In this document: positions 8,701 through 26,552 of the stretch, piece by piece
How positions within the stretch are numbered: the stretch's first letter is position 1
Layout: every line of letters starts with the position of its first letter
Source of the DNA: a virus
Virus record (IMG/VR): IMGVR_UViG_3300049215_000852
Span: 1-27,513 of that record
Direction: 5' to 3' (one strand)
Length of the DNA stretch: 27,513 nucleotides
Notes under the pieces: model-generated
Database searches by the model: none
Told to the model about the DNA's origin: nothing
Seen by the model: the letters and a program-made list of their open reading frames with translations, nothing else
Position numbers and translations under genes: made by a program

Positions 8701-9350
8701 TCCACGCGACGGCCAATGGCACCGGCTCCGGCCTCTCCGGCACGGGCGGACTCACCGGCCACGGCATCCTGGCGACCGGCGGCGCCACGAGCGGCAGCGG
8801 CTTCAAGGGCGTCGCGCCGACGAGCGGCTCGGGCGCCAGCTTCACCGGCGCGGGTACGTTCCACGGCCTCCATTTGATCGCCGGCGCAACGGGCAATGGC
8901 CTGACGATCGTCGCCGGGTCGACGAGCGGCCTCGGCGTCGCGATCACGACCACGAGCGGCGACGGCGTCTCGATCCTCCCCACCAACGGCAACGCCGTTA
9001 CCGCGGCCGGCCAGGGCGTCAACAAGAGCGGCGCCGTCTTCACCGGGGGCAGCGGCACCGGGACCGGCATCGTGGGCAACATCTCCGGCAACATCGCCGG
9101 CACGGTCACCGTGGGCGGCTACGCGAGCAATCAGGACCCCGCGACTCTCGTGTGGGCCGGCCAGGGCGTCAACGGCCTCACCTATTCGGTCCTCATGCGA
9201 GCGATCGCCGCGGAGGCCCTTGGCAACGTCGTCGAGACGACCGACGGCACCGCGACGTCGATCTACGACGCGGGGGACACCAACAACAGCAACCCGGCTC
9301 GGATCACCTCGGCCCAAACCGCGACCACGCGCACGGTCACGCTCCACTGA
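5787..9350 (+). CDS. Large tail spike/fibre with parallel beta-helix and glycine-rich C-terminal repeats
   Basis: A 1187-residue surface protein. Residues 1-60 have the D-S-N-N-G-L-S-P-S-A-P motif that opens many right-handed beta-helix proteins. Helix rungs with N-N-S-F, S-G-N-S-L, S-G-N-T-F and V-S-G-N-S-F follow to about residue 395. Residues about 408-535 form an inserted beta-sandwich (L-A-I-Q-L-Q-L-A-K to N-A-L-L-Y-L-S-R-L-G), like a carbohydrate-binding jelly roll. A second rung series (V-V-K-N-N-V-V, V-K-N-N-I-L-A, Y-E-N-N-S-I) runs to about 750. Residues about 955-1110 are a Gly/Ser/Thr-rich repeat (G-H-G-I-L, G-S-G-F, G-N-G-L-T-I spaced 8-12 residues), as in triple-stranded fibre shafts. 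It probably binds or degrades host surface polysaccharide. No catalytic residues can be assigned. Its place inside the connector module is unusual. Confidence 0.8.
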   Translation: MPKSVYLSNTTGYNGYGAASDSNNGLSPSAPVATGAHAVTLLSAGDTLVLNNTTTPYQIDDGSGNGLNLGSIGVTVTGDPNFVNPGDKTTWAIIQGTGGSNRLVNLNGITVPVVLQYVALDGQNAGYDLIQPHNVSAGLTCDHVWFKNVTGRNCIAAPSGTGNVIAITNCQFDSTVTKLIATNNSYASLTISGCTASGNSGELLSQFPGNGNTVTSLTISNNSFTSFTGYPFHLKGGTITSFSCTFNTFNNSYGGVFVDFAAPITFTHFHFDSNTNTGTSTQPMLYAWNFTCTDGSISNNTASCSAGGVLVRAELASGITMSGNSLTVPLGVTADAAYLGPIGTNWTISGNTFTILTASSIHGLLIGSDGYLTDFNNSGGSITNQNLFDVSGNSFLAQQVTTSALTQSSRSSNVLAIQLQLAKHGNPTGAVTVAFYTNSAGAPGTLIGTATTTIGASSLTTSLQPFEFYFNTPANLPAATTEIISVTVTGGAVDSNNYFIVGRNATTTGGIYSTASTLNGSYTAQSSNALLYLSRLGTVPTGLVVKNNVVQATETGTTTVHGILAGSITAGTFDSNRVKDTSLCICVKDSANLEVKNNILATNYSSQAPIQDKGSRACTYENNSISNTSGASSACVMFEPDGNLGVNAWVADSTTIVQNNAIRGSASSGVGYIYLFLANTLGTSPTPTIRTNGIDNRANVTIQSPSYATWAAWTGAGFDAGSFNSDLLLTNDTNPYLPADFVPTLSSPLLFAGRNNITSVPVDFNGTERNANGDIGAVVYAAATNDIVCRVNSMPGGGFAYALLSTVNGGQMENLSTRATEVYASANYPKYAVTLKQQGSGPRWVGSTPYWIQQSFLNQDCRYTSVSAGTISEADHSADDPTIATKVWWSGTGQYVPPQTDSSGRPQSNMVQCGGSAVAAGAIPNAAAGAANGIPINGTNTGPVSWSGGWTITNSTGHALALSSTGGNGDGLHATANGTGSGLSGTGGLTGHGILATGGATSGSGFKGVAPTSGSGASFTGAGTFHGLHLIAGATGNGLTIVAGSTSGLGVAITTTSGDGVSILPTNGNAVTAAGQGVNKSGAVFTGGSGTGTGIVGNISGNIAGTVTVGGYASNQDPATLVWAGQGVNGLTYSVLMRAIAAEALGNVVETTDGTATSIYDAGDTNNSNPARITSAQTATTRTVTLH

Positions 9351-9874: not shown

Positions 9875-10297
9875 ATGGCCGTCAAAAACCCCGGCTTGGG
9901 GACAATCCTTCAACTCTCGATCAGCTCGACTTACACCAACGTCGCGCAGCGCGTCTCGCTCGACGGGCCCGAGCTCGCGGTCGGTACCGCCAACACGACC
10001 GACCTCGACGGCACCGTGGAAACCTATCGCCCCACGCTCCCCGACTCCGGCGAGCTCAGCGGCACGCTTTACTACGATCCCCAGGACAGCACACATAGCG
10101 CGCTCTTCTCCGCGGTCACGGCCCCGTCGCAAACGCTCAACTTGTGGAAACTCAAGTTCACCGATGCCGCGGCATCGATCCTCGCGTTCTCGGGGATCCT
10201 CACCAAGTTCAAGCCCACCGGCATGACGAAGGACGGCAACCTCAGCGCTGACTTTTCCATCAAGGTCAGCGGCACGCCGGTTATGACCCACAGTTAA
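9875..10297 (+). CDS. Tail tube protein, copy 1
   Basis: The 140-residue major tail protein that polymerises in rings to form the DNA channel of a non-contractile tail. It has the short tube-protein plan: N-terminal arm with L-Q-L-S-I-S, a loop with V-S-L-D-G-P-E-L, then D-S-G-E-L-S-G-T-L-Y-Y-D-P, W-K-L-K-F-T-D, and a final strand pair with F-K-P-T-G-M and F-S-I-K-V-S-G. It starts 4 bases after the tail completion stop with GGAGCTTGAG in front. About 85% of positions match the next gene, counted by eye. It is two residues shorter in the loop after Y-Y-D-P-Q. Confidence 0.87.
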   Translation: MAVKNPGLGTILQLSISSTYTNVAQRVSLDGPELAVGTANTTDLDGTVETYRPTLPDSGELSGTLYYDPQDSTHSALFSAVTAPSQTLNLWKLKFTDAAASILAFSGILTKFKPTGMTKDGNLSADFSIKVSGTPVMTHS

Positions 10298-10342: not shown

Positions 10343-10771
10343 ATGGCCGTCAAAAACCCCGGCTTGGGGACCGTTCTACAGCTCAAGATCAGCATGACGT
10401 ACACCCCGGTGTCTCAGCGCGTCTCGCTCGACGGCCCCGAGCTCGCGGTGGGCACCGCGAACACGACCGACCTCGACGGCACCGTGGAGACCTACCGGCC
10501 CACGATCCCCGACAGCGGCGAGCTCAGCGGCACGCTCTATTACGACCCGCAAGAGGCGAGCACGACTCACTCGACGATGTTCACCGCGATCACCGCACCG
10601 TCGCAAACGTTGAACCTCTGGAAGCTCATCTTCACCGACTCGGTTGCGTCGACCCTCTCATTCTCGGGCATCCTCACGAAGTTCAAGCCCACGGGCATGA
10701 CGAAGGATGGCAACCTCAGCGCTGACTTCACTATCAAAGTCAGCGGCTCGCCGGTCATGACCCACACGTGA
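10343..10771 (+). CDS. Tail tube protein, copy 2
   Basis: A 142-residue paralogue of the preceding gene. Differences cluster in the N-terminal arm (residues 11-24, e.g. S to K and N to P) and in the loop after Y-Y-D-P-Q, where this copy has two more residues. The central block V-S-L-D-G-P-E-L to V-E-T-Y-R-P-T is identical. Both reading frames are intact and conserved to the last residues, so neither copy looks decayed. GGGAG at 10331-10335 precedes the ATG. The two may assemble into a mixed tube, or serve as major tube and tail terminator/initiator variants. This is inference, and the downstream chaperone and tape measure genes could serve either copy. Confidence 0.87.
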   Translation: MAVKNPGLGTVLQLKISMTYTPVSQRVSLDGPELAVGTANTTDLDGTVETYRPTIPDSGELSGTLYYDPQEASTTHSTMFTAITAPSQTLNLWKLIFTDSVASTLSFSGILTKFKPTGMTKDGNLSADFTIKVSGSPVMTHT

Positions 10772-17174: not shown

Positions 17175-17633
17175 ATGGAGACGAACGACGTGAAGGCCCG
17201 CACGGGTCGCCGTGCGGCCGGCCGAGACTTCGTCGAGGTTTTCGCCGGGCTCGAGGAATATGTGCGACAGGAGAAGTCGCGGCGACGGGCGGGCGGCAAC
17301 GACCTCGGCCAGCAAACGGAGCGGACGGCCAAGCAAACCCTGATGCTCACCGTGCGCGAGCGTCAACTCCTGGACGTCCACGCTCTCGGCTTCGGAGTCG
17401 ACCCCGCCCAACTTGTCGGTCACCTCCTGACCGCGTGTTGCAAGCGGTTTGTACTCCAGGACCGGGGGGGGAACGGCCCTGGAGTTGAATCGGCAAACGG
17501 GGAAAGCGTGGTTAACCTTTCCGGTGAAAATATCCCGATCCCGGAAACTATTCCGGCCCCGGAATCGATCACCGAGGCTCCCGCCCCAGAGCAGGGGAGG
17601 GGTCAATCGGGCCGGCGCGCGAAAGTCGCGTGA
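17175..17633 (+). CDS. Hypothetical protein in the lysogeny cluster, possible DNA-binding
   Basis: A 152-residue protein with GAGGT about 7 bases before the ATG. The N-terminal 50 residues are basic (R-R-A-A-G-R, K-S-R-R-R-A-G-G). Residues about 54-95 contain Q-T-L-M-L-T-V-R-E-R-Q-L-L followed by two predicted helices (P-A-Q-L-V-G-H-L-L-T-A-C-C-K-R), reminiscent of a strand-helix-helix (ribbon-helix-helix-like) fold, but this is not certain. The C-terminal 55 residues are Pro/Glu/Gly-rich and probably disordered. It is divergent from the zinc-motif gene and convergent with the integrase, overlapping that gene's end by 31 bases. Position suggests a phage regulator. Confidence 0.65.
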   Translation: METNDVKARTGRRAAGRDFVEVFAGLEEYVRQEKSRRRAGGNDLGQQTERTAKQTLMLTVRERQLLDVHALGFGVDPAQLVGHLLTACCKRFVLQDRGGNGPGVESANGESVVNLSGENIPIPETIPAPESITEAPAPEQGRGQSGRRAKVA

Positions 17634-18508
17634 GCCAGCTCCCGCGCCAGCAGCAACGGATCCGGGTGAAGGTACCGCTCCGTGGTCGTGATCGACCCAT
17701 GCCCGAGCGACGCGGACACGACCCAGAGCGGTACTCTCCACTCCGTGAGCGCGATCGTCGCGAACGAATGACGCAGCCCATGCCAGGTCACCCTTCCCAA
17801 CCCCGCCTCCGCGGCCGCGGCCTGTAGCTGTGTGAGCGGCCGTGAGCGATGGTCGCAATTGAGCCACGGCCCTTGCCGTCTGACTCCCGGAAACATCCAT
17901 TTGCAGCCCGTCTCGCGGAGCCACGGCTCGAGCATCTCGAGCAGCTCGTGGGGCACCGCGATCACGCGCGTACTTTTGGCCGTCTTCAACGGCCGTTCCC
18001 GCGGCACGATCCTTAGCAGCCTCGCGCCCGCGTCGAGGTCCTCGAGCCGGAGGCAAAGCGCCTCGGTGCGTCGTACTCCGGTATGCGCGATCACGGCCGT
18101 GAGCGCGTGGAGCCGTCTCCCCTTCCAGTCGCGGGCCCTCTCCCTCAGCGACTCGAGGAGCCGCGAGACCTCGTCCCACGTGAGCACGGGATTGCGGCTC
18201 ATCGGCACCGGCTTGGGCGCGATCCGTTTGAGCGACGGCATGCGCTCGAGGTATCCCTCGTCGACCGCATAGCGGCAGATCGTGCGAACGTAGTCGAGAT
18301 ACCCTCGCTTGCTGTTCGCATTGCAGCTCAGCGAATCGAGGTACCTCCGAACCTCGCGCGTGGTGAGATCGGCCGTCGAGGTCGGCTTGCAAGCCTCCTC
18401 GAATTCCCGAAGCACTTGGCGGAATTTGAGATACGAGGCGTTGGATTCCTTCCGCTCGTACAGGCGCAAAAGACCATCCCTGAACGCTTCGAAAGCAATA
18501 GCGTTCAT
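17603..18508 (-). CDS. Tyrosine recombinase/integrase of the left prophage
   Basis: A 301-residue site-specific recombinase. The N-terminal SAM-like core-binding domain covers about 1-100. The catalytic domain shows R146 (H-T-G-V-R-R-T-E), K175 (P-L-K-T-A-K-S), H243 and R246 (W-H-G-L-R-H-S-F), H270 (S-L-G-H-G-S-I) and the nucleophile Y279 (T-E-R-Y-L-H-P). All six positions are intact and length is complete, so it looks active. It starts 155 bases from the tRNA fragment and reads away from it. GGGAG lies 9 bases upstream of the ATG. The short form lacks an arm-binding domain of lambda type. It probably integrates the left prophage at the tRNA gene. Confidence 0.93.
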   Translation of the reverse strand: MNAIAFEAFRDGLLRLYERKESNASYLKFRQVLREFEEACKPTSTADLTTREVRRYLDSLSCNANSKRGYLDYVRTICRYAVDEGYLERMPSLKRIAPKPVPMSRNPVLTWDEVSRLLESLRERARDWKGRRLHALTAVIAHTGVRRTEALCLRLEDLDAGARLLRIVPRERPLKTAKSTRVIAVPHELLEMLEPWLRETGCKWMFPGVRRQGPWLNCDHRSRPLTQLQAAAAEAGLGRVTWHGLRHSFATIALTEWRVPLWVVSASLGHGSITTTERYLHPDPLLLARELAHATFARRPD

Positions 18509-18556: not shown

Positions 18557-18584
18557 AGGTTACCCTCTGGCCACATTGTGTCAA
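18557..18584 (-). promoter_or_regulatory. Candidate promoter for the minus-strand integrase
   Basis: Read on the minus strand, a perfect TTGACA (18584-18579) is followed after 16 bases by TAACCT (18562-18557), a poor match to TATAAT. The integrase ATG is about 49 bases further. A slightly more distant TTATGT is an alternative -10. Prediction from consensus only. Confidence 0.35.
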
Positions 18585-18662
18585 ATCTGTAAAGTACCGT
18601 AATATGCGCAAACATAAAGAGTTACGGGGTCTGTTCCATGTAATCATCCCATGGACATAGTT

Positions 18663-18704
18663 TTCGCAATGCTGAGGTTGAGGGTTCGATCCCCTTCCGC
18701 TCCA
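18663..18704 (+). other. tRNA-Ala(CGC) 3' fragment, attachment core (attL/attR)
   Basis: The fragment reads as anticodon loop TTCGCAA (18663-18669, anticodon CGC), 3' anticodon stem TGCTG, variable AGGTT, T-stem GAGGG, T-loop TTCGATC, T-stem CCCTT, acceptor CCGCTCC (18697-18703) and discriminator A at 18704. T at position 70 fits the G3-U70 alanine identity pair. The upstream bases do not complete the anticodon stem, and no GGGGCGG-like 5' acceptor is present, so this is only the 3' part. Two integrases flank it. This is the usual signature of integration into a tRNA gene with the core copied to the element boundary. Confidence 0.85.
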
Positions 18705-18813
18705 CTGGACCTAACTTGCGACAGGCATAGTAGTTAGCGTGCTGCCACCACGGTGGCCACGAGGGCACGGCGACTCCGAGAACCCGGTAGACTACCGGAT
18801 TGGAGTGCATTCC

Positions 18814-20022
18814 GTGTCCGCGCGTACACCGTCATATCGCCTGCACAAACCGTCGGGGTTGGCCGTCGTCACGTTGAACGGCGTCGACATCTATCTCGGC
18901 CGGCACGGCACCGAAGAGAGCCGGGCGGAATACGACCGCCGCATCGCCGAATGGCTGCTCAATGGGCGACAGTCTCGCCCCGCATCGCAGGCCGCGAGCG
19001 ACCTGGCGGTGAATGAACTGGTTGTCGCCTACCGAAAGTGGGCGGACCAGTATTACCGGACGCCGAGCGGACGACCGACGATCGAGCCAAAGAACATCCG
19101 GCTCGCGACCCGTCCCTTGCTCGACTTGTACGGACACTCGCTCGCCGCGTCGTTCGGTCCGCTGGCGTTGAAGTGCTGCCGCCAACGAATGATCGATGGC
19201 GACGTGTGCCGCTTGGAGGTCAACCGCAGGGTCGGGCGGATCGTCCGCATGTTCAGATGGGCGGTCGAGAACGAACTGGTCGCCCCGAGCGTGCTTCAAG
19301 GCTTGAGGGCGATCCAGCCATTGCACGCGGGGCGCAGCGCGGCGCGAGAAAGCGAGCCCGTCCGCCCCGTGCCCGATTGGGTCGTCGACGCGACGCTCCC
19401 GTTCCTGGCCCGCCAAGTCGCGGCGATGGTTGGGCTGCAAAAGCTGACCGGCATGCGGCCGGGCGAAGTGGTCGCGATGCGGATGTGTGACCTGGACATG
19501 AGCGGCCGGACGTGGGTCTACGCACCGCCGACGCACAAGACCCAGCACCTTGGAAAGCAACGCCATATTTTCATCGGTCCGAAGGCGCAAGCGGTCCTCC
19601 GGCCCTGGCTGCGAACCGACCTGACTGCGCCGCTGTTCAGCCCCGCCGAAGCGATGGCCGAGCGATGGGAGCGGCAACGGGCGACCCGCAAAACCAAGGT
19701 CCAACCGTCGCAACGGTCGCGGAAACGGCCCCGTCCCGAGAAGACGCCTGGCGAGTGCTACACGACCACGAGCTACCGGCGGGCGATCGCGGAAGGGGTC
19801 CGCAAGGCGAGCCGAGCGGCGAAGCGCGAGAGCCCGGACGCGCCCGACGTACCGGGGTGGCACCCCCACCAGTTAAGGCATAACGCAGCAACGTATTTGC
19901 GCCGCGAGTTCGGGATCGAGGTCGCGCGAACCGTGCTCGGTCACTCAGGTTTGGACGCGACACAGATTTATGCGGAAGCCGACTTGGAGAAGGCCCGAGC
20001 GGCGATGGATCGAGTTGGTTAG
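18814..20022 (+). CDS. Tyrosine recombinase/integrase of the right element (planctomycete type)
   Basis: A 402-residue integrase from the GTG at 18814, chosen because GGAG lies 8 bases upstream and the first residues then read P-S-Y-R-L-H-K-P-S-G, the typical opening of this group. A GTG at 18739 would add 25 unlikely residues. Catalytic residues in this numbering are R215 (L-T-G-M-R-P-G-E), K242, H352 and R355 (P-H-Q-L-R-H-N), H377 (V-L-G-H-S-G-L) and Y386 (Q-I-Y-A-E-A-D). Residues about 278-345 are a basic insertion (R-K-T-K-V-Q-P-S-Q) that I associate with planctomycete integrases. All catalytic positions are intact. It reads away from the tRNA core, divergent to the other integrase. Confidence 0.93.
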   Translation: MSARTPSYRLHKPSGLAVVTLNGVDIYLGRHGTEESRAEYDRRIAEWLLNGRQSRPASQAASDLAVNELVVAYRKWADQYYRTPSGRPTIEPKNIRLATRPLLDLYGHSLAASFGPLALKCCRQRMIDGDVCRLEVNRRVGRIVRMFRWAVENELVAPSVLQGLRAIQPLHAGRSAARESEPVRPVPDWVVDATLPFLARQVAAMVGLQKLTGMRPGEVVAMRMCDLDMSGRTWVYAPPTHKTQHLGKQRHIFIGPKAQAVLRPWLRTDLTAPLFSPAEAMAERWERQRATRKTKVQPSQRSRKRPRPEKTPGECYTTTSYRRAIAEGVRKASRAAKRESPDAPDVPGWHPHQLRHNAATYLRREFGIEVARTVLGHSGLDATQIYAEADLEKARAAMDRVG

Positions 20023-21110: not shown

Positions 21111-21197
21111 TTCGACGCATTCCGCCCGCGTTGAGTAGGACCGATCCATCGCATTCGAGTGCCGCGCAGTGCGGCGAGCAACGCGATGGGAGGTCCC

Positions 21198-21518
21198 GTG
21201 ATCACGATCGCAGACGAGCGCGTCTTCCCGTTGGGCGACATGCCCGACCACGTTCCGCACGGACGGGGCGGAAAGCGGCGACACCCGTCGACTGGTTTCC
21301 GCTGGGCAAAACACGGTCACCGCGGCATCCGCCTAGAAACGATCCGGATTGGCGGAACATTATGTACATCCGTTGAAGCGTTGCAGCGGTTCTTTGAGCG
21401 GCTGAGCGCGACCGACGGCCCGGCCCCGGCATCGTCCACCCCCGCCCGTCGTTCGCCCGCCTGCCGGGCGAAAGACATCGCGACAGCCGACGCCGAACTG
21501 AAAAAGCTGGGGGTGTGA
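21198..21518 (+). CDS. DUF1580-like small protein, possible excisionase/regulator
   Basis: A 106-residue protein. The GTG at 21198 is preferred because GGGAGG lies 4 bases upstream. The ATG at 21186 would place that site inside the gene. Residues 1-70 follow the DUF1580 plan known from planctomycetes: V-F-P-L-G-D (helix), R-G-G-K-R-R-H-P-S-T, F-R-W-A-K-H-G-H-R-G-I-R-L-E-T, then G-G-T-L-C-T-S-V-E-A-L-Q-R-F. This has the shape of a MerR/excisionase-like helix-turn-helix. The C-terminal tail is Pro/Ala-rich. It ends 4 bases before the primase gene. A role like AlpA/Xis in switching excision or replication is inferred. Confidence 0.8.
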   Translation: MITIADERVFPLGDMPDHVPHGRGGKRRHPSTGFRWAKHGHRGIRLETIRIGGTLCTSVEALQRFFERLSATDGPAPASSTPARRSPACRAKDIATADAELKKLGV

Positions 21519-21521
21519 CGC

Positions 21522-24089
21522 ATGACCGCGTGCAACGGCCGGCCGTTCCCACCTGTGCCGCCGCCCGCCACGGATGACGCACTGGCGACAGCGAGCTGGG
21601 CGTTGGCTTGCGGCTTGTGGCCGGTCCCAATCACCCCGATCGATGACTCCACGGCGAACAGCCCGGGCAAGCAGCCGATCGGCAAGGCGTGGGGTGCGGA
21701 GCGGCCGAGCGAATCGTCGCTCACGACGACGTTCCGTCGGAATCCGGGCGCTGGAGTGGGCCTGGTGCTTGGCGCGGCTGGGCTGGTCATCGACCTGGAC
21801 GTGGACGACCCGGCGGAAGCCGAAGCGACGCTCGCCCGACTGTTCCCCGGCGGCATCCCCGCGACGATGGGATGGCAGGCGAATAAGGGCGGCCACATGT
21901 TGTTTCGCTATGACCCGCGTCTGGCTGGGTTGGGCGCGATCGTCAAGGGAGTCCGGGACGGCGCGACCGGCAAGGTGGGCGGCAACCCGTGGTATCTCGG
22001 GATCGAACTGCGTCTGGGCGCGGAGCCGGGCGAGTCCAAACAGCTACAGAGCGTGGCCCCGCCTAGCCTGAAGGCCGATGGTTCGCCCCGCGCGTGGAAC
22101 GGTTCCGCCGAGATCATGCCGTTGCCCGAGTCGGTATTCGCCGATTTGGAGAAACACGGGCGCGAGCGGGTGAAGCCGCCAGCGCGCACGGGGACCGCCA
22201 GCACGCGCCATCAGCGACCCACGAGCGTTGGCGCCACAAGCTATGCCCGCGCGGCACTCAATCGCGAGGTGGAAGCCGTCGCGGCCGCGCCCAATGGATC
22301 GCGCAATGGGACGTTGAACAGTGCCGCGTTCTCGCTCGGGCAACTGGTCGGAGCGAACGCCCTGGACCTGGGCGACGTCGAGAGCGCCCTGACCGACGCG
22401 GCTCGCTCGGCGGGCCTGACCGACGCCGAGACCGCAGCGACGCTCGCGAGCGGGCTGTCCGCTGGTTTGGCGTCGCCGCGCGACCTGGCAGGGATCGGAG
22501 CGCGATCGAGGAACGGGCACGCGCCCCACGATGGGCACGCCCGGAATGGGCCGACGGAAAGTAACGGAGCGGACAGCGAGCGCCCGGAGATCGTCGTCAG
22601 TGAAGCCGCCAACGATCCGCATCGGCTCGCCCGGCTCTTTCTCGCTGCCCAGTGCAGCCACCCCGATGGGCTCACGCTGCGGTCTTGGCGGGGCGAGTGG
22701 GTCGAGTGGCAAGGGTCTTACCGACCCGTTCCGGCCGGGGACCTGCGCGCACGGCTCGCGGCGGTCGTCAAGGCCGAGTTCGACCGGCTCAATGTGAGCG
22801 AGACCGCGATCTGGGAGCGCGCGGGGGACGACAAGCTGAAACCGCGTCCGACGGCTTACAAGGTGACGCGGAGCCTGATCGCCGACACACTCCAGGCGCT
22901 GGCGAGCATCACGCTCGTTCCGAGCGCGACCGATCAACCCGTCTGGCTGGACGGCGAATCGCGATTCCCCACCGCCGAGGTCCTCGTGGCACCGAACGCG
23001 ATCATCCACCTGCCGACGTGGGTCGAGCGGCGCCCCGAAGCGGCGATCATGCCGCCGACGCCCCGCTTCTTTGCCCCGAGCATGCTGGATTATGAGTTCG
23101 ACCTGAACGCGCTGGAACCAACCGAGTGGTTGCGGTTTCTCGGTGCCCGCCCGATCACTTCGGCAAGCAGGGTGCGCTATCAGCTATGGTCCGATCCTGA
23201 AGACGTCGATTGCATCAACACGTTGCAGGAGTTCTTCGGCTATTGCTTATTGCCCGACACCCGGCAACAGAAGATTCTCGGGCTTTTCGGTCCGAAGCGG
23301 TCCGGAAAAGGGACGGTCGCGCGCGTGCTGGCCGCGCTCGTAGGGCAAGCGAACGTCGCGAACCCGACGCTGTCGAGTCTCGGGACGAATTTCGGGCTGG
23401 CACCGCTGCTCGCCAAACTGGTCGCGATCATTACGGACGCTCGCTTGAGCGGTCGGAGCGACGTCGCCCAAGTAGTCGAGTCCCTGCTCTCGATAAGCGG
23501 CGAAGACAGCAGGACGGTCGACCGGAAGCACCTGCCGCCGATCACGGTCAAGCTGCCGGTCCGGTTCGTCGTCATCGCGAACGAACTGCCCCGCATCGCC
23601 GACGCTTCGGGCGCCCTGGCGGGGCGCATGCTCATCCTGCCGATGAGCCGAAGCTTCTTCGGTCAGGAGGACCCCACTCTCACCGACGTTTTCTTGACCG
23701 AACTGCCAGGGGTTTTGTTGTGGGCGATCGAGGGATGGCGTCGACTCCGTGAGCGCGGTTACTTCGTCCAACCCAAGGCCGGTAAGTCGCTGGTTGAGAC
23801 GTTCGAGGAGATGTCGAGCCCCATCGGTAGCTTTGTCGCCGAGTGCTGCAAGGTCGAGCCCGACGCTTCGGTGCTCGTGGACGACCTGTTCCGTTCCTGG
23901 AAAACGTGGTGCGAGCGCCGGAACCGCAAGGACGCGGGCGACATCGCTCTGTTCGGGCGGAACCTGCGATCCGTGCTGCCGGCCCTGCAAACCAAGTCGG
24001 TGCGCGGCCGTGACGGCTGGGCGCGGGAGTTCCGGGGCATCCGGGAGCGAGAGCCGGGCGAGACCCCCGACGGGGTGGCGAGCCAATGA
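21522..24089 (+). CDS. Primase-polymerase / SF3 helicase replication protein
   Basis: An 855-residue replication initiator. The N-terminal archaeo-eukaryotic prim-pol domain (about 20-205) includes K-Q-P-I-G-K-A-W, the metal-binding pair in V-I-D-L-D-V-D-D (D91, D93), N-K-G-G-H-M-L-F with H125, and an S-V-A-P-P-S motif. Residues about 210-560 form a linker and D5_N-like region. The C-terminal superfamily 3 helicase has Walker A G-P-K-R-S-G-K-G-T (590-598), A-I-I-T-D-A-R-L as Walker B-like, and R-F-V-V-I-A-N-E-L-P-R followed by L-A-G-R-M-L-I-L-P (sensor and arginine finger region). This is the P4-alpha/phage-plasmid primase architecture. It should start and drive replication at the adjacent iteron origin. 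Confidence 0.93.
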   Translation: MTACNGRPFPPVPPPATDDALATASWALACGLWPVPITPIDDSTANSPGKQPIGKAWGAERPSESSLTTTFRRNPGAGVGLVLGAAGLVIDLDVDDPAEAEATLARLFPGGIPATMGWQANKGGHMLFRYDPRLAGLGAIVKGVRDGATGKVGGNPWYLGIELRLGAEPGESKQLQSVAPPSLKADGSPRAWNGSAEIMPLPESVFADLEKHGRERVKPPARTGTASTRHQRPTSVGATSYARAALNREVEAVAAAPNGSRNGTLNSAAFSLGQLVGANALDLGDVESALTDAARSAGLTDAETAATLASGLSAGLASPRDLAGIGARSRNGHAPHDGHARNGPTESNGADSERPEIVVSEAANDPHRLARLFLAAQCSHPDGLTLRSWRGEWVEWQGSYRPVPAGDLRARLAAVVKAEFDRLNVSETAIWERAGDDKLKPRPTAYKVTRSLIADTLQALASITLVPSATDQPVWLDGESRFPTAEVLVAPNAIIHLPTWVERRPEAAIMPPTPRFFAPSMLDYEFDLNALEPTEWLRFLGARPITSASRVRYQLWSDPEDVDCINTLQEFFGYCLLPDTRQQKILGLFGPKRSGKGTVARVLAALVGQANVANPTLSSLGTNFGLAPLLAKLVAIITDARLSGRSDVAQVVESLLSISGEDSRTVDRKHLPPITVKLPVRFVVIANELPRIADASGALAGRMLILPMSRSFFGQEDPTLTDVFLTELPGVLLWAIEGWRRLRERGYFVQPKAGKSLVETFEEMSSPIGSFVAECCKVEPDASVLVDDLFRSWKTWCERRNRKDAGDIALFGRNLRSVLPALQTKSVRGRDGWAREFRGIREREPGETPDGVASQ

Positions 24090-24092
24090 TCG

Positions 24093-24466
24093 TGTGGCGC
24101 GACGTGGCGCGGTGTGGCGCGATGGAATCAGCCTCCCGCCACGACGCAAGTCGTTACCGCTGACCAGCAAAAGACGCCTGTGGCGCGGTGTGGCGCGATG
24201 TTTCTTACTTATTGCATGAAGCAGGAAACAAGAAAGTAGTGAACAAAAAGAATGAGCGCAAATCGTATGGACTGCAAAGAGGTGGGATCGCGCCACACGC
24301 GCCACAACAGCGCTCCGCAATGGGGGCCGCGATGGCTGGCCGAAGCGAGCCGGGTGCCTGTTTTTCAGGCTCAAACACCACACGAGCCCGTGGGCGACTC
24401 GCCCGTGGCGGGGTCGGCCGACATCGCGCCACACATCGCGCCACAACTGGGCGACATCGCGCCACA
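24093..24466. repeat. Iteron arrays in opposite orientation around an AT-rich island, candidate origin of replication
   Basis: The unit is TGTGGCGCGATG. Direct copies: 24093-24102, 24104-24112, 24113-24124 (perfect), 24179-24188 and 24189-24200 (perfect), often 10 bp apart. Inverted copies (CATCGCGCCACA): 24286-24297 (11 of 12), 24298-24306 (partial), 24422-24433, 24434-24445 and 24455-24466 (all perfect). Between the two arrays, at about 24199-24280, is an unusually A/T-rich stretch with short A- and T-runs. The primase-helicase gene ends just before it. Iterons flanking an AT-rich unwinding element next to the initiator gene is classical origin layout. Part of the right array is coding (D-I-A-P-H-I-A-P-Q). 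Confidence 0.78.
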
Positions 24467-24749
24467 ACTGAGCCCCGAGCGCCGGCCGTGGCCCCCGCGC
24501 GACGAACAGCTCGCCGACTGGCCCGCCCCGTGGCGTGAAGCGTGGGGAAGGCGCACGAACGAGCTGATCGACCAAGGGCGCGATTGGCGGTCCGCCGAGT
24601 CGGCCGCGTTCGCCGAGATGCTCGCGAGGATCGAAGCCGGCGACCCGTCCCCTGAGCCCTTGCGCGAGCCCGTCGCCGACGTTCCTGAGCCCACCCCAAG
24701 CTGGTCAACGCTGCCCTTACGATTCGGAGGTGGCGAACGTGTGGCGTAA
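24252..24749 (+). CDS. Hypothetical protein overlapping the right iteron array
   Basis: A 165-residue frame. The N-terminal half contains residues translated from the iterons (D-I-A-P-H-I-A-P-Q-L-G-D-I-A-P-Q-L) and looks low in structure. The C-terminal half has P-W-R-E-A-W-G-R-R-T-N-E-L, R-D-W-R-S-A-E-S-A-A-F-A-E-M-L, an amphipathic pattern I have seen in short planctomycete mobile-element proteins. The ATG at 24252 has no clear binding site and lies in the AT-rich part, so the true start may be further in. It overlaps the next gene by 11 bases. Function unknown. Confidence 0.55.
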   Translation: MSANRMDCKEVGSRHTRHNSAPQWGPRWLAEASRVPVFQAQTPHEPVGDSPVAGSADIAPHIAPQLGDIAPQLSPERRPWPPRDEQLADWPAPWREAWGRRTNELIDQGRDWRSAESAAFAEMLARIEAGDPSPEPLREPVADVPEPTPSWSTLPLRFGGGERVA

Positions 24750-25158
24750 TCCTCGCTATCCACAACCCGAGCCCCCGCGCCCGGCCGCCGAGAGCGGCGA
24801 GCGCCTTTTGACGATCGAACGCGGTCGCGACACCGAGTTCCGCGTTTGCCTGTCGACGTTCCAGGGCAAGCCGTACGTCAGCTTGCGCGTCTGGCAACTC
24901 GACCCCGACTCGGGCGAATGGTGGCCAGTGAAGGGCAAGGGTTGCAGCGTCCGGCTGAGCGAAGCCGCGCGGCTCGCGGACGCGCTCCGCGCGGTCGCGG
25001 AAGACCGACCGCGCAACCTGAGTGAACCAAGCGCGACTCGCTCGCCATTGAGTGCCCGACGTCCGAAGGCAGCGCCAGCGAGCCCCCCGCCGCGGAGCTG
25101 GGCAGCCAATCTTCCGGCGGGACCGACGTCCGCCGCAGAGTTCAGCGAGTTCGATTGA
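24739..25158 (+). CDS. PC4/p15-like single-strand DNA-binding protein
   Basis: A 139-residue protein from the GTG at 24739, with GGAGG at 24726-24730 spaced 8 bases. A GTG at 24730 overlaps that site and is rejected. Residues about 20-85 have the PC4/transcriptional coactivator p15 pattern: E-F-R-V-C-L-S-T-F-Q-G-K-P-Y-V-S-L-R-V-W, then P-D-S-G-E-W-W-P-V-K-G-K-G-C-S-V and a C-terminal helix E-A-A-R-L-A-D-A-L. This fold binds single-stranded DNA as a dimer. The rest is Pro/Ala/Ser-rich. Next to the origin and primase-helicase it may act as a replication ssDNA-binding protein or transcription modulator. Confidence 0.75.
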   Translation: MWRNPRYPQPEPPRPAAESGERLLTIERGRDTEFRVCLSTFQGKPYVSLRVWQLDPDSGEWWPVKGKGCSVRLSEAARLADALRAVAEDRPRNLSEPSATRSPLSARRPKAAPASPPPRSWAANLPAGPTSAAEFSEFD

Positions 25159-25770: not shown

Positions 25771-26022
25771 ATGGACCCGCACGACGCAGTGTTCAACATC
25801 GTGGTTTGCCGCTGTGTGCCTGCCGTCTTGCGCGCGATCGATGAGCACGACGCGGACGATCGCGCGGACATGCTCTTGCGAGCGTCGCGGTTGATGTTCG
25901 ACGCCGGTTCGTACCTGCTCGGACTGGCCCGGGACCCGCTCGACGACCTGGTGGCCGACGACGCTCCCAATCGCCACCGCCGCCAATTGGGAAAGCGACC
26001 CCGCCGGCCAAAAACGAGGTGA
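25771..26022 (+). CDS. Small hypothetical protein upstream of terS
   Basis: An 83-residue protein with GAGGGAG before the ATG. The first 55 residues are helical (V-P-A-V-L-R-A-I-D-E-H-D-A-D-D-R, M-L-L-R-A-S-R-L-M-F-D-A-G), and the last 15 are strongly basic (R-H-R-R-Q-L-G-K-R-P-R-R-P-K), suggesting nucleic acid contact. It touches the next gene. An accessory packaging or regulatory factor is possible by position only. Confidence 0.65.
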   Translation: MDPHDAVFNIVVCRCVPAVLRAIDEHDADDRADMLLRASRLMFDAGSYLLGLARDPLDDLVADDAPNRHRRQLGKRPRRPKTR

Positions 26023-26024
26023 TC

Positions 26025-26552
26025 GTGGACCCAGAGCTGACGCTCAAGGAACGGCGGTTCGTGGAGTGCTACCTTGGCGAGGCGAGGGGCTGCGCGAGCC
26101 TCGCCGCGAGAATGGCGGGTTACAAGAACGACCACCCCACTGGGTCGCGCCTGCTACGAAAACCTACAGTTCGCGCGGCGATCGCGAGCGAGTTGGACGA
26201 CGCCGCGATGAGCGCCAAAGAGTGCTTGGCGAGGCTCTCCGACGTCGCGCGTGGCGACCTGACTGACTTCCTCGACCTTAGCGGTGATGGGCCGCCCGTG
26301 GTCGACATCAGGAAGGCCCGAAAGCGAGGCCGGTCCCATCTGCTGAAACGGCTAGCCGTAGGCAAGGACGGAGTGCGGCTCGAGCTTCACGACCCTCTCG
26401 CCGCGCTCGCCCTACTTGCACGATTTCATAGGTTGACCGTCGACGCGAGAGAGGAGCCCGTCGATATGGGCAAGGCTCTTGAGCGAGCCCACGAGATCGT
26501 GGCCCGCCGCCGAGCCGAGCGGAACGAATCTCCAACCCACGAACCAAGGTGA
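26025..26552 (+). CDS. Terminase small subunit
   Basis: A 175-residue DNA-recognition subunit of a packaging terminase. The GTG at 26025 has GAGG 5 bases in front. A GTG at 26019 that overlaps the previous stop adds two residues. Residues 1-45 carry the family's helix-turn-helix: L-T-L-K-E-R-R-F-V-E-C-Y-L, A-A-R-M-A-G-Y, S-R-L-L-R-K-P-T-V-R-A-A-I. After it come A-K-E-C-L-A-R-L-S-D-V-A-R-G-D-L-T-D-F, typical of this group, and a C-terminal V-R-L-E-L-H-D-P-L-A-A-L-A-L-L-A-R-F-H segment. No large subunit is seen within the window. In satellites of the PICI type such a protein redirects helper packaging. In a prophage it would precede terL. Confidence 0.88.
   Translation: MDPELTLKERRFVECYLGEARGCASLAARMAGYKNDHPTGSRLLRKPTVRAAIASELDDAAMSAKECLARLSDVARGDLTDFLDLSGDGPPVVDIRKARKRGRSHLLKRLAVGKDGVRLELHDPLAALALLARFHRLTVDAREEPVDMGKALERAHEIVARRRAERNESPTHEPR

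Follow-up and report, generated by a model that had tools for sequence, protein, structure and literature searches.

A two-armed iteron array directly 3' of a primase-helicase gene: a probable phage replication origin with conserved geometry and variable repeat words

The stretch of DNA analysed here, the 27,513-bp IMG/VR record IMGVR_UViG_3300049215_000852 (in the following, the window), contains a repeat array that is very probably the replication origin of the phage. Judged from its sequence, it would be an initiator-iteron origin of the P4/PICI type that is doubled as a dyad and placed directly 3' of its own initiator gene. This type of origin is known already from P4 and PICIs and the interesting part is the conserved geometry: by sequence comparison, the same layout with different repeat words recurs in dozens of unrelated phages. 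The features of the region are listed below.

21522..24089, plus strand: primase-helicase initiator gene, 855 aa, with Prim-Pol, DUF5906/D5-type SF3 helicase and C-terminal winged-helix domain
23775..24047, plus strand: coding region of the predicted C-terminal winged-helix DNA-binding domain (residues ~752-842)
24093..24101, plus strand: iteron 1, left triplet, TGTGGCGCG
24103..24111, plus strand: iteron 2, left triplet, CGTGGCGCG
24113..24121, plus strand: iteron 3, left triplet, TGTGGCGCG
24135..24143, minus strand: iteron 4, single inverted copy of the left arm, CGTGGCGGG, within 2 bp of the inverted-repeat position in P4
24179..24187, plus strand: iteron 5, left inner doublet, TGTGGCGCG
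24189..24197, plus strand: iteron 6, left inner doublet, TGTGGCGCG
24200..24283, no strand: AT-rich island (38% GC), proposed melting region
24289..24297, minus strand: iteron 7, right inner doublet, TGTGGCGCG
24298..24306, minus strand: iteron 8, right inner doublet, TGTGGCGCG
24404..24412, plus strand: iteron 9, single inverted copy of the right arm, CGTGGCGGG, as iteron 4
24425..24433, minus strand: iteron 10, right outer group
24437..24445, minus strand: iteron 11, right outer group
24458..24466, minus strand: iteron 12, right outer group
24252..24749, plus strand: predicted ORF, 165 aa, covering part of the AT island and the whole right arm

The ten copies, five in each direction, that had been described in the initial annotation were all found (forward iterons at 24093, 24103, 24113, 24179 and 24189, reverse iterons at 24289, 24298, 24425, 24437 and 24458), but the true total is 12 sites, one inverted copy having been missed in each arm. 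These two extra copies, at 24135-24143 (minus) and 24404-24412 (plus), are opposed to their own arm and are both exactly CGTGGCGGG, giving six sites per arm in the pattern >>> < >> (AT island) << > <<<. With a third CGTGGCGGG at 21564, this word occurs three times in the record against 0.94 expected; the word alone is not significant and it is their position that sets the copies at 24135 and 24404 apart. The unit TGTGGCGCG is present in nine exact copies in the 27,513-bp record and all of them are confined to 24093-24466, whereas shuffled records contained 0.85 copies on average and never more than three (100 shuffles). The tenth copy, at 24103, is the CGTGGCGCG variant. No second repeat cluster was seen elsewhere in the record, all exact repeats being located within 24093-24466, and the exact double-iteron pattern (a 22-mer) gave no match in viral contigs.

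The array begins 4 bp after the primase-helicase gene, the stop codon of which ends at 24089, in agreement with the claim that it directly follows this gene. The spacing of 10 bp that had been noted holds for the left arm but not for the right, where it is 9 bp and then 12 and 21 bp. Similarly, the symmetry is correct for the order of sites, which is the same in both arms, but not for the distances, the right outer group being ~62 bp farther out than its left counterpart (close to six helical turns). From the neighbouring triplet copy to the inverted copy the distance is 22 bp in the left arm (24113 to 24135); in the right arm the inverted copy and the outer group are 21 bp apart (24404 to 24425). 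The island at 24200-24283 has a GC content of 38% compared to roughly 65% for the record, and the GC minimum of the record falls here with windows of both 60 and 80 bp, which bears out the AT-rich 80-bp core in GC-rich DNA that had been pointed out. The cumulative GC skew curve was roughly flat from ~18.5 kb onward with no clear turn at 24.2 kb, and this neither supports nor refutes an origin. For the ORF at 24252-24749 no family was found and there was no homologue among the fetched loci.

The initiator matches PF09250 (E 4e-16), PF19263 (E 1e-13) and the DNA primase family PHROG 1156 (E 1e-50), and a profile built from its relatives matches the SaPI5 primase-helicase 7ola (E 4e-30) as well as P4 alpha. 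In an AlphaFold2 model of the last 400 residues (mean pLDDT 87.6) the C-terminal domain was predicted with pLDDT mostly >90 as helix-helix-strand-helix-helix-strand-strand. The best fold match of the model was again 7ola (Z 27.6, 323 residues), and with a model range of 21-391 this match extends into the C-terminal domain; the next matches were poxvirus D5/E5 and ASFV PrimPol. The crystal structure of the P4 origin-binding domain (1KA8) was absent among the listed fold matches, which counts neither for nor against a relationship. Profile and model together place the protein among SF3 initiators related to P4 alpha and SaPI PriRep. Because the model also matches 9im3, a head-to-head double hexamer of MPXV E5 (Z 17.9), a double hexamer is plausible for the initiator of the window.

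Relatives of the primase were collected from IMG/VR, from GTDB genomes and from 392 genomes of the phylum of a Planctomycetaceae MAG (the best relative in the last set being 49% identical over residues 341-849), and 94 non-redundant loci had enough sequence past the stop codon. When an array was defined as a significantly repeated 8-mer in the 500 bp at the stop codon, it was found at the initiator gene in 44/94 relatives compared to 1/273 control windows from the same loci. This is a lower bound since four loci (L119, L126, L127 and L128) fail the 8-mer test yet show facing repeats by eye. The iteron words are mostly unrelated among the relatives (e.g. GGTCAGGG, GCGTTCCA, TGTCGGAG, TTGTCCCA, GTGCTGCC and TGTAATGA), and the usual distance between neighbouring iterons on the same strand is 9, 10 or 11 bp. 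By the 8-mer test, roughly half of the non-redundant relatives had no array, in some cases due to a too strict test and in others perhaps because the layout is truly absent. The initial annotation had named related initiators without the repeats as one observation that would speak against an origin; this is mostly not what was found, but L112 and many distant relatives do lack a detectable array. Up to a distance of 900 bp no array is visible in L112, which was the closest relative found (~49% identity in the helicase half); this locus may belong to a decayed prophage, or its origin may be located elsewhere.

The arrangement of sites was compared with that of satellite phage P4. In the NCBI record of P4 the type-1 origin repeats are located at 9310, 9320 and 9331 (minus), 9353 (plus), and 9396 and 9406 (minus), so that the ori arm consists of three copies in the same direction, one inverted and two in the same direction, at offsets -96, -86, -75, -53, -10 and 0. 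The left arm in the window has offsets -96, -86, -76, -55, -10 and 0, all six within 2 bp of P4, while the right arm has the same order but not the P4 spacing, being stretched by ~62 bp. Since the P4 template was drawn from outside the present data, it could be used as an independent test. When it was scanned as two mirrored arms with 2-bp slack, z>4 was obtained for 37/95 origin regions (the 94 relatives plus phage Sfi21) compared to 1/138 control regions. Over the 45 array loci the summed score of the P4 template was 2800, compared to 2390 ± 64 with a maximum of 2619 for 200 random templates, and it fell to 2718 when the inverted site was made direct. Allowing at most one mismatch per site and a position within 3 bp of the P4 arm, all six sites were present in 14/45 arrays and at least five in 21/45, whereas with shuffled gap order, with or without strands, the maxima were 1 and 6, respectively (500 trials). 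The arms were assessed through the layout around the gap and through the count for either arm; both arms are clear in L088, L027, L034 and L138, and in a subgroup with GGTCAGGG-like words the odd site of the right arm points the opposite way.

The fit to the template extends to named phages and satellites, with z values of 11.6 for the satellite Javan605, 10.5 for Lactococcus proPhi7, 6.6 for Streptococcus thermophilus phage P7151 and 4.0-4.8 for Sfi21, likewise a phage of S. thermophilus. Bacillus rho14, which has facing GTTACTT doublets, reached 3.2, and Lactobacillus phage A2, which is off the P4 spacing, 1.9. Among cultured phages with related primases, the template does not fit PHTowN, Troll4, PTXU04, Mischief19 and two Vibrio phages. 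Salmonella phage 9NA (z 4.7) was not counted, its best-scoring position being without obvious iterons by eye. We propose one sequence-independent layout rule for Prim-Pol/D5-type initiators, which we regard as having about the same chance of being right as of being wrong: in phages, satellites and perhaps archaeal plasmids, an AT island would be flanked by two mirror-image arms, each with six sites in the 3-1-2 order at fixed distances and each serving as the template of one hexamer, and the word would drift or be exchanged along with the DNA-binding domain in a ~500-bp cassette. No description of such a six-plus-six rule was found in the literature searched, which covered few subscription papers.

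The same geometry bears on the idea that the repeats are operators through which the initiator or another phage regulator controls the downstream genes, with replication starting elsewhere. The array is indeed located between two co-directional genes, and iterons of plasmids are often used for autoregulation as well. However, the mirrored arms centre on the most AT-rich stretch of the record, the P4-origin geometry is present, and other phages have annotated origins at the equivalent place, which makes a purely regulatory array improbable; a dual role as operator and origin is possible. The claim of a replication origin made in the initial annotation is thus supported by the array beside the initiator genes of relatives, by the P4-like spacing of the left arm and by the phage records with an annotated origin (Sfi21 and A2), which have an array at the same place.

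A DNA stem-loop origin, as proposed for the Sulfolobus plasmid pRN1, in which the repeats matter only by pairing, has an even lower probability. The inner doublets can pair as a ~20-bp stem (single-strand folding z -3.9), and in pRN1 the integrity of the stem is needed (PMC4234260), but any inverted iteron doublets yield such a stem, and one hairpin leaves unexplained the outer triplets and the single inverted copies, the spacing of which is nevertheless kept across unrelated words. Furthermore, in P4 the ori arm stands alone, with no mirrored arm next to it. According to the published description, pRN1 needs a stem-loop 3' of its replication gene and has no iterons (PMC4234260). Counted from the stop codon, the stem in its sequence (L155, ~50-155 bases past the replication gene) has TGTCCA at positions 56 and 65 and TGGACA at positions 135 and 144; these are two facing doublets with a 9-bp spacing and an AT-rich gap between them. 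The putative pRN1 origin thus resembles the window in being located just 3' of a Prim-Pol/SF3 gene and in having inverted doublets, and differs in that no outer triplets were seen by eye; the pRN1 stem-loop may itself consist of inverted iterons. The window was not assigned to a pRN1-type class of stem-loops without iterons, a stem being possible but iterons being present.

Further evidence for an initiator-iteron origin comes from the joint variation of iterons and the C-terminal domain. Across 44 loci the iteron distance was correlated with the C-terminal distance when helicase distance was held constant (partial Mantel r 0.23, permutation p = 0.002, the p-value being approximate since the loci share ancestry and are not phylogenetically independent), compared to r 0.05 for iteron versus helicase distance with the C-terminal distance held constant. 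Between L028 and L046 the helicases are 98% identical and the C-terminal domains 57%, the geometry is the same and the iteron words (CTGTGTCA and GCGTTCCA) are unrelated. The DNA identity of this pair is mostly 78-100% up to ~250 bp before the stop codon, 32-76% from there to ~250 bp after it and 90-96% from 300 to 750 bp after it. The opposite is seen for L028 and L030, in which domain and origin are nearly identical and the helicase DNA is less similar. In these three IMG/VR contigs a ~500-bp cassette of C-terminal domain and origin is thus swapped between near-identical phages, indicating that the DNA-binding domain and the origin move as one unit. A counter-case is L018 and L024, in which the C-terminal domains differ and the word is unchanged. 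Based on homology and on this natural exchange of domain plus iterons, we infer that the initiator binds the iterons through its C-terminal winged-helix domain.

That the array consists of integrase arm-type sites or a packaging (pac/cos) site has a very low probability and was rejected, because although the record carries tyrosine recombinase genes (17603-18508 and 18739-20022) and a terminase small subunit gene (26019-26552), and both kinds of protein use short repeats, the array abuts the primase gene and not these genes, tracks the primase gene in the relatives and has a word that follows the primase C-terminal domain.

The two recombinase genes (the first on the minus and the second on the plus strand) diverge, and the 230-bp gap between them, which could contain att or promoter sites, includes the record's second most AT-rich stretch (~18565-18680). 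Possibly one of the genes encodes the integrase and its neighbour a second recombinase. None of the ORFs scanned was recognised as a large terminase. End repeats, as would be expected of a complete circular genome, were not found in the record; its first letters are located just before an ATG and its last letters form a stop codon, so that it could be either a trimmed provirus or a fragment with a piece missing at the junction. Downstream of the origin region, the product of the gene at 24730-25158 has a PC4-like (p15 coactivator) domain; this fold is known to bind single-stranded DNA, and the protein could be a replication-associated single-stranded DNA-binding protein. Just upstream of the primase is a gene for a DUF1580 protein (21159-21518), a family that is mainly planctomycetal, which is in line with the planctomycete relatives of the primase. 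The adjacent genes 9875-10297 and 10343-10771 both match the major tail protein family PHROG 158 and are perhaps a duplication.

For the array as an origin, an activity that we infer from sequence comparison, the following mechanism could apply. The C-terminal winged-helix domain of the initiator would bind the iterons, and each arm, with its six sites facing almost the same side of the helix, would position one SF3 hexamer; that each arm takes up exactly one hexamer is a proposal to which we give an even chance. Two hexamers would assemble in opposite orientation, one per arm, melt the AT island, load onto opposite strands and start two forks, with primers made by the Prim-Pol domain. Bidirectional forks are suggested by the symmetry of the array and by analogy with the family.

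These findings would link the uncultured phage, which is of planctomycete type, to the well studied self-priming initiators, in which it is the geometry that is conserved and not the word. Origins would become predictable beside any such primase gene, the natural domain swaps provide material for mapping which residues read which word, and the layout makes it easy to test if six sites correspond to six subunits.

Compared to known systems, the P4 ori has the same 3-1-2 order of six repeats as the left arm of the window and is served by a homologous SF3 helicase, but its repeat word is unrelated, it has one arm located >2 kb from the alpha gene whereas the window has two facing arms beside the gene, and the alpha primase is of the Toprim type (PMC4234260) while that of the window is a Prim-Pol. 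In addition, P4 needs a separate crr and the window, without a second repeat cluster, is therefore not a P4 replicon in the strict sense. The crr repeats annotated in P4 (L142, 4291-4590) also open with a doublet, after which comes an inverted copy at a distance of 52 bp, and each crr half resembles part of an ori arm. Closer in position are Sfi21, with an annotated origin (34487-34784) that starts at the end of the primase gene, and A2, in which the annotated origin (32208-32717) is located directly at the end of the primase gene; both have inverted iterons around a long AT tract, as in the window, with different words. For the PICI/SaPI pri-rep-ori system, from which the best structural match of the initiator is derived (SaPI5 7ola), an AT-rich region beside the initiator gene is located between two sets of iterons, and plasmids need both to replicate (PMC6092414). 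Initiator plus ori sustain autonomous replication in SaPIbov1, SaPI1, EfCIV583 and EcCICFT073, and the layout was remarked to be common to no other known bacterial replicon (PMC6092414). In contrast to the PICI setting, the layout is found here in a tailed, planctomycete-type phage and also in numerous other phages and prophages, which suggests that an origin layout once thought private to PICIs is widespread.
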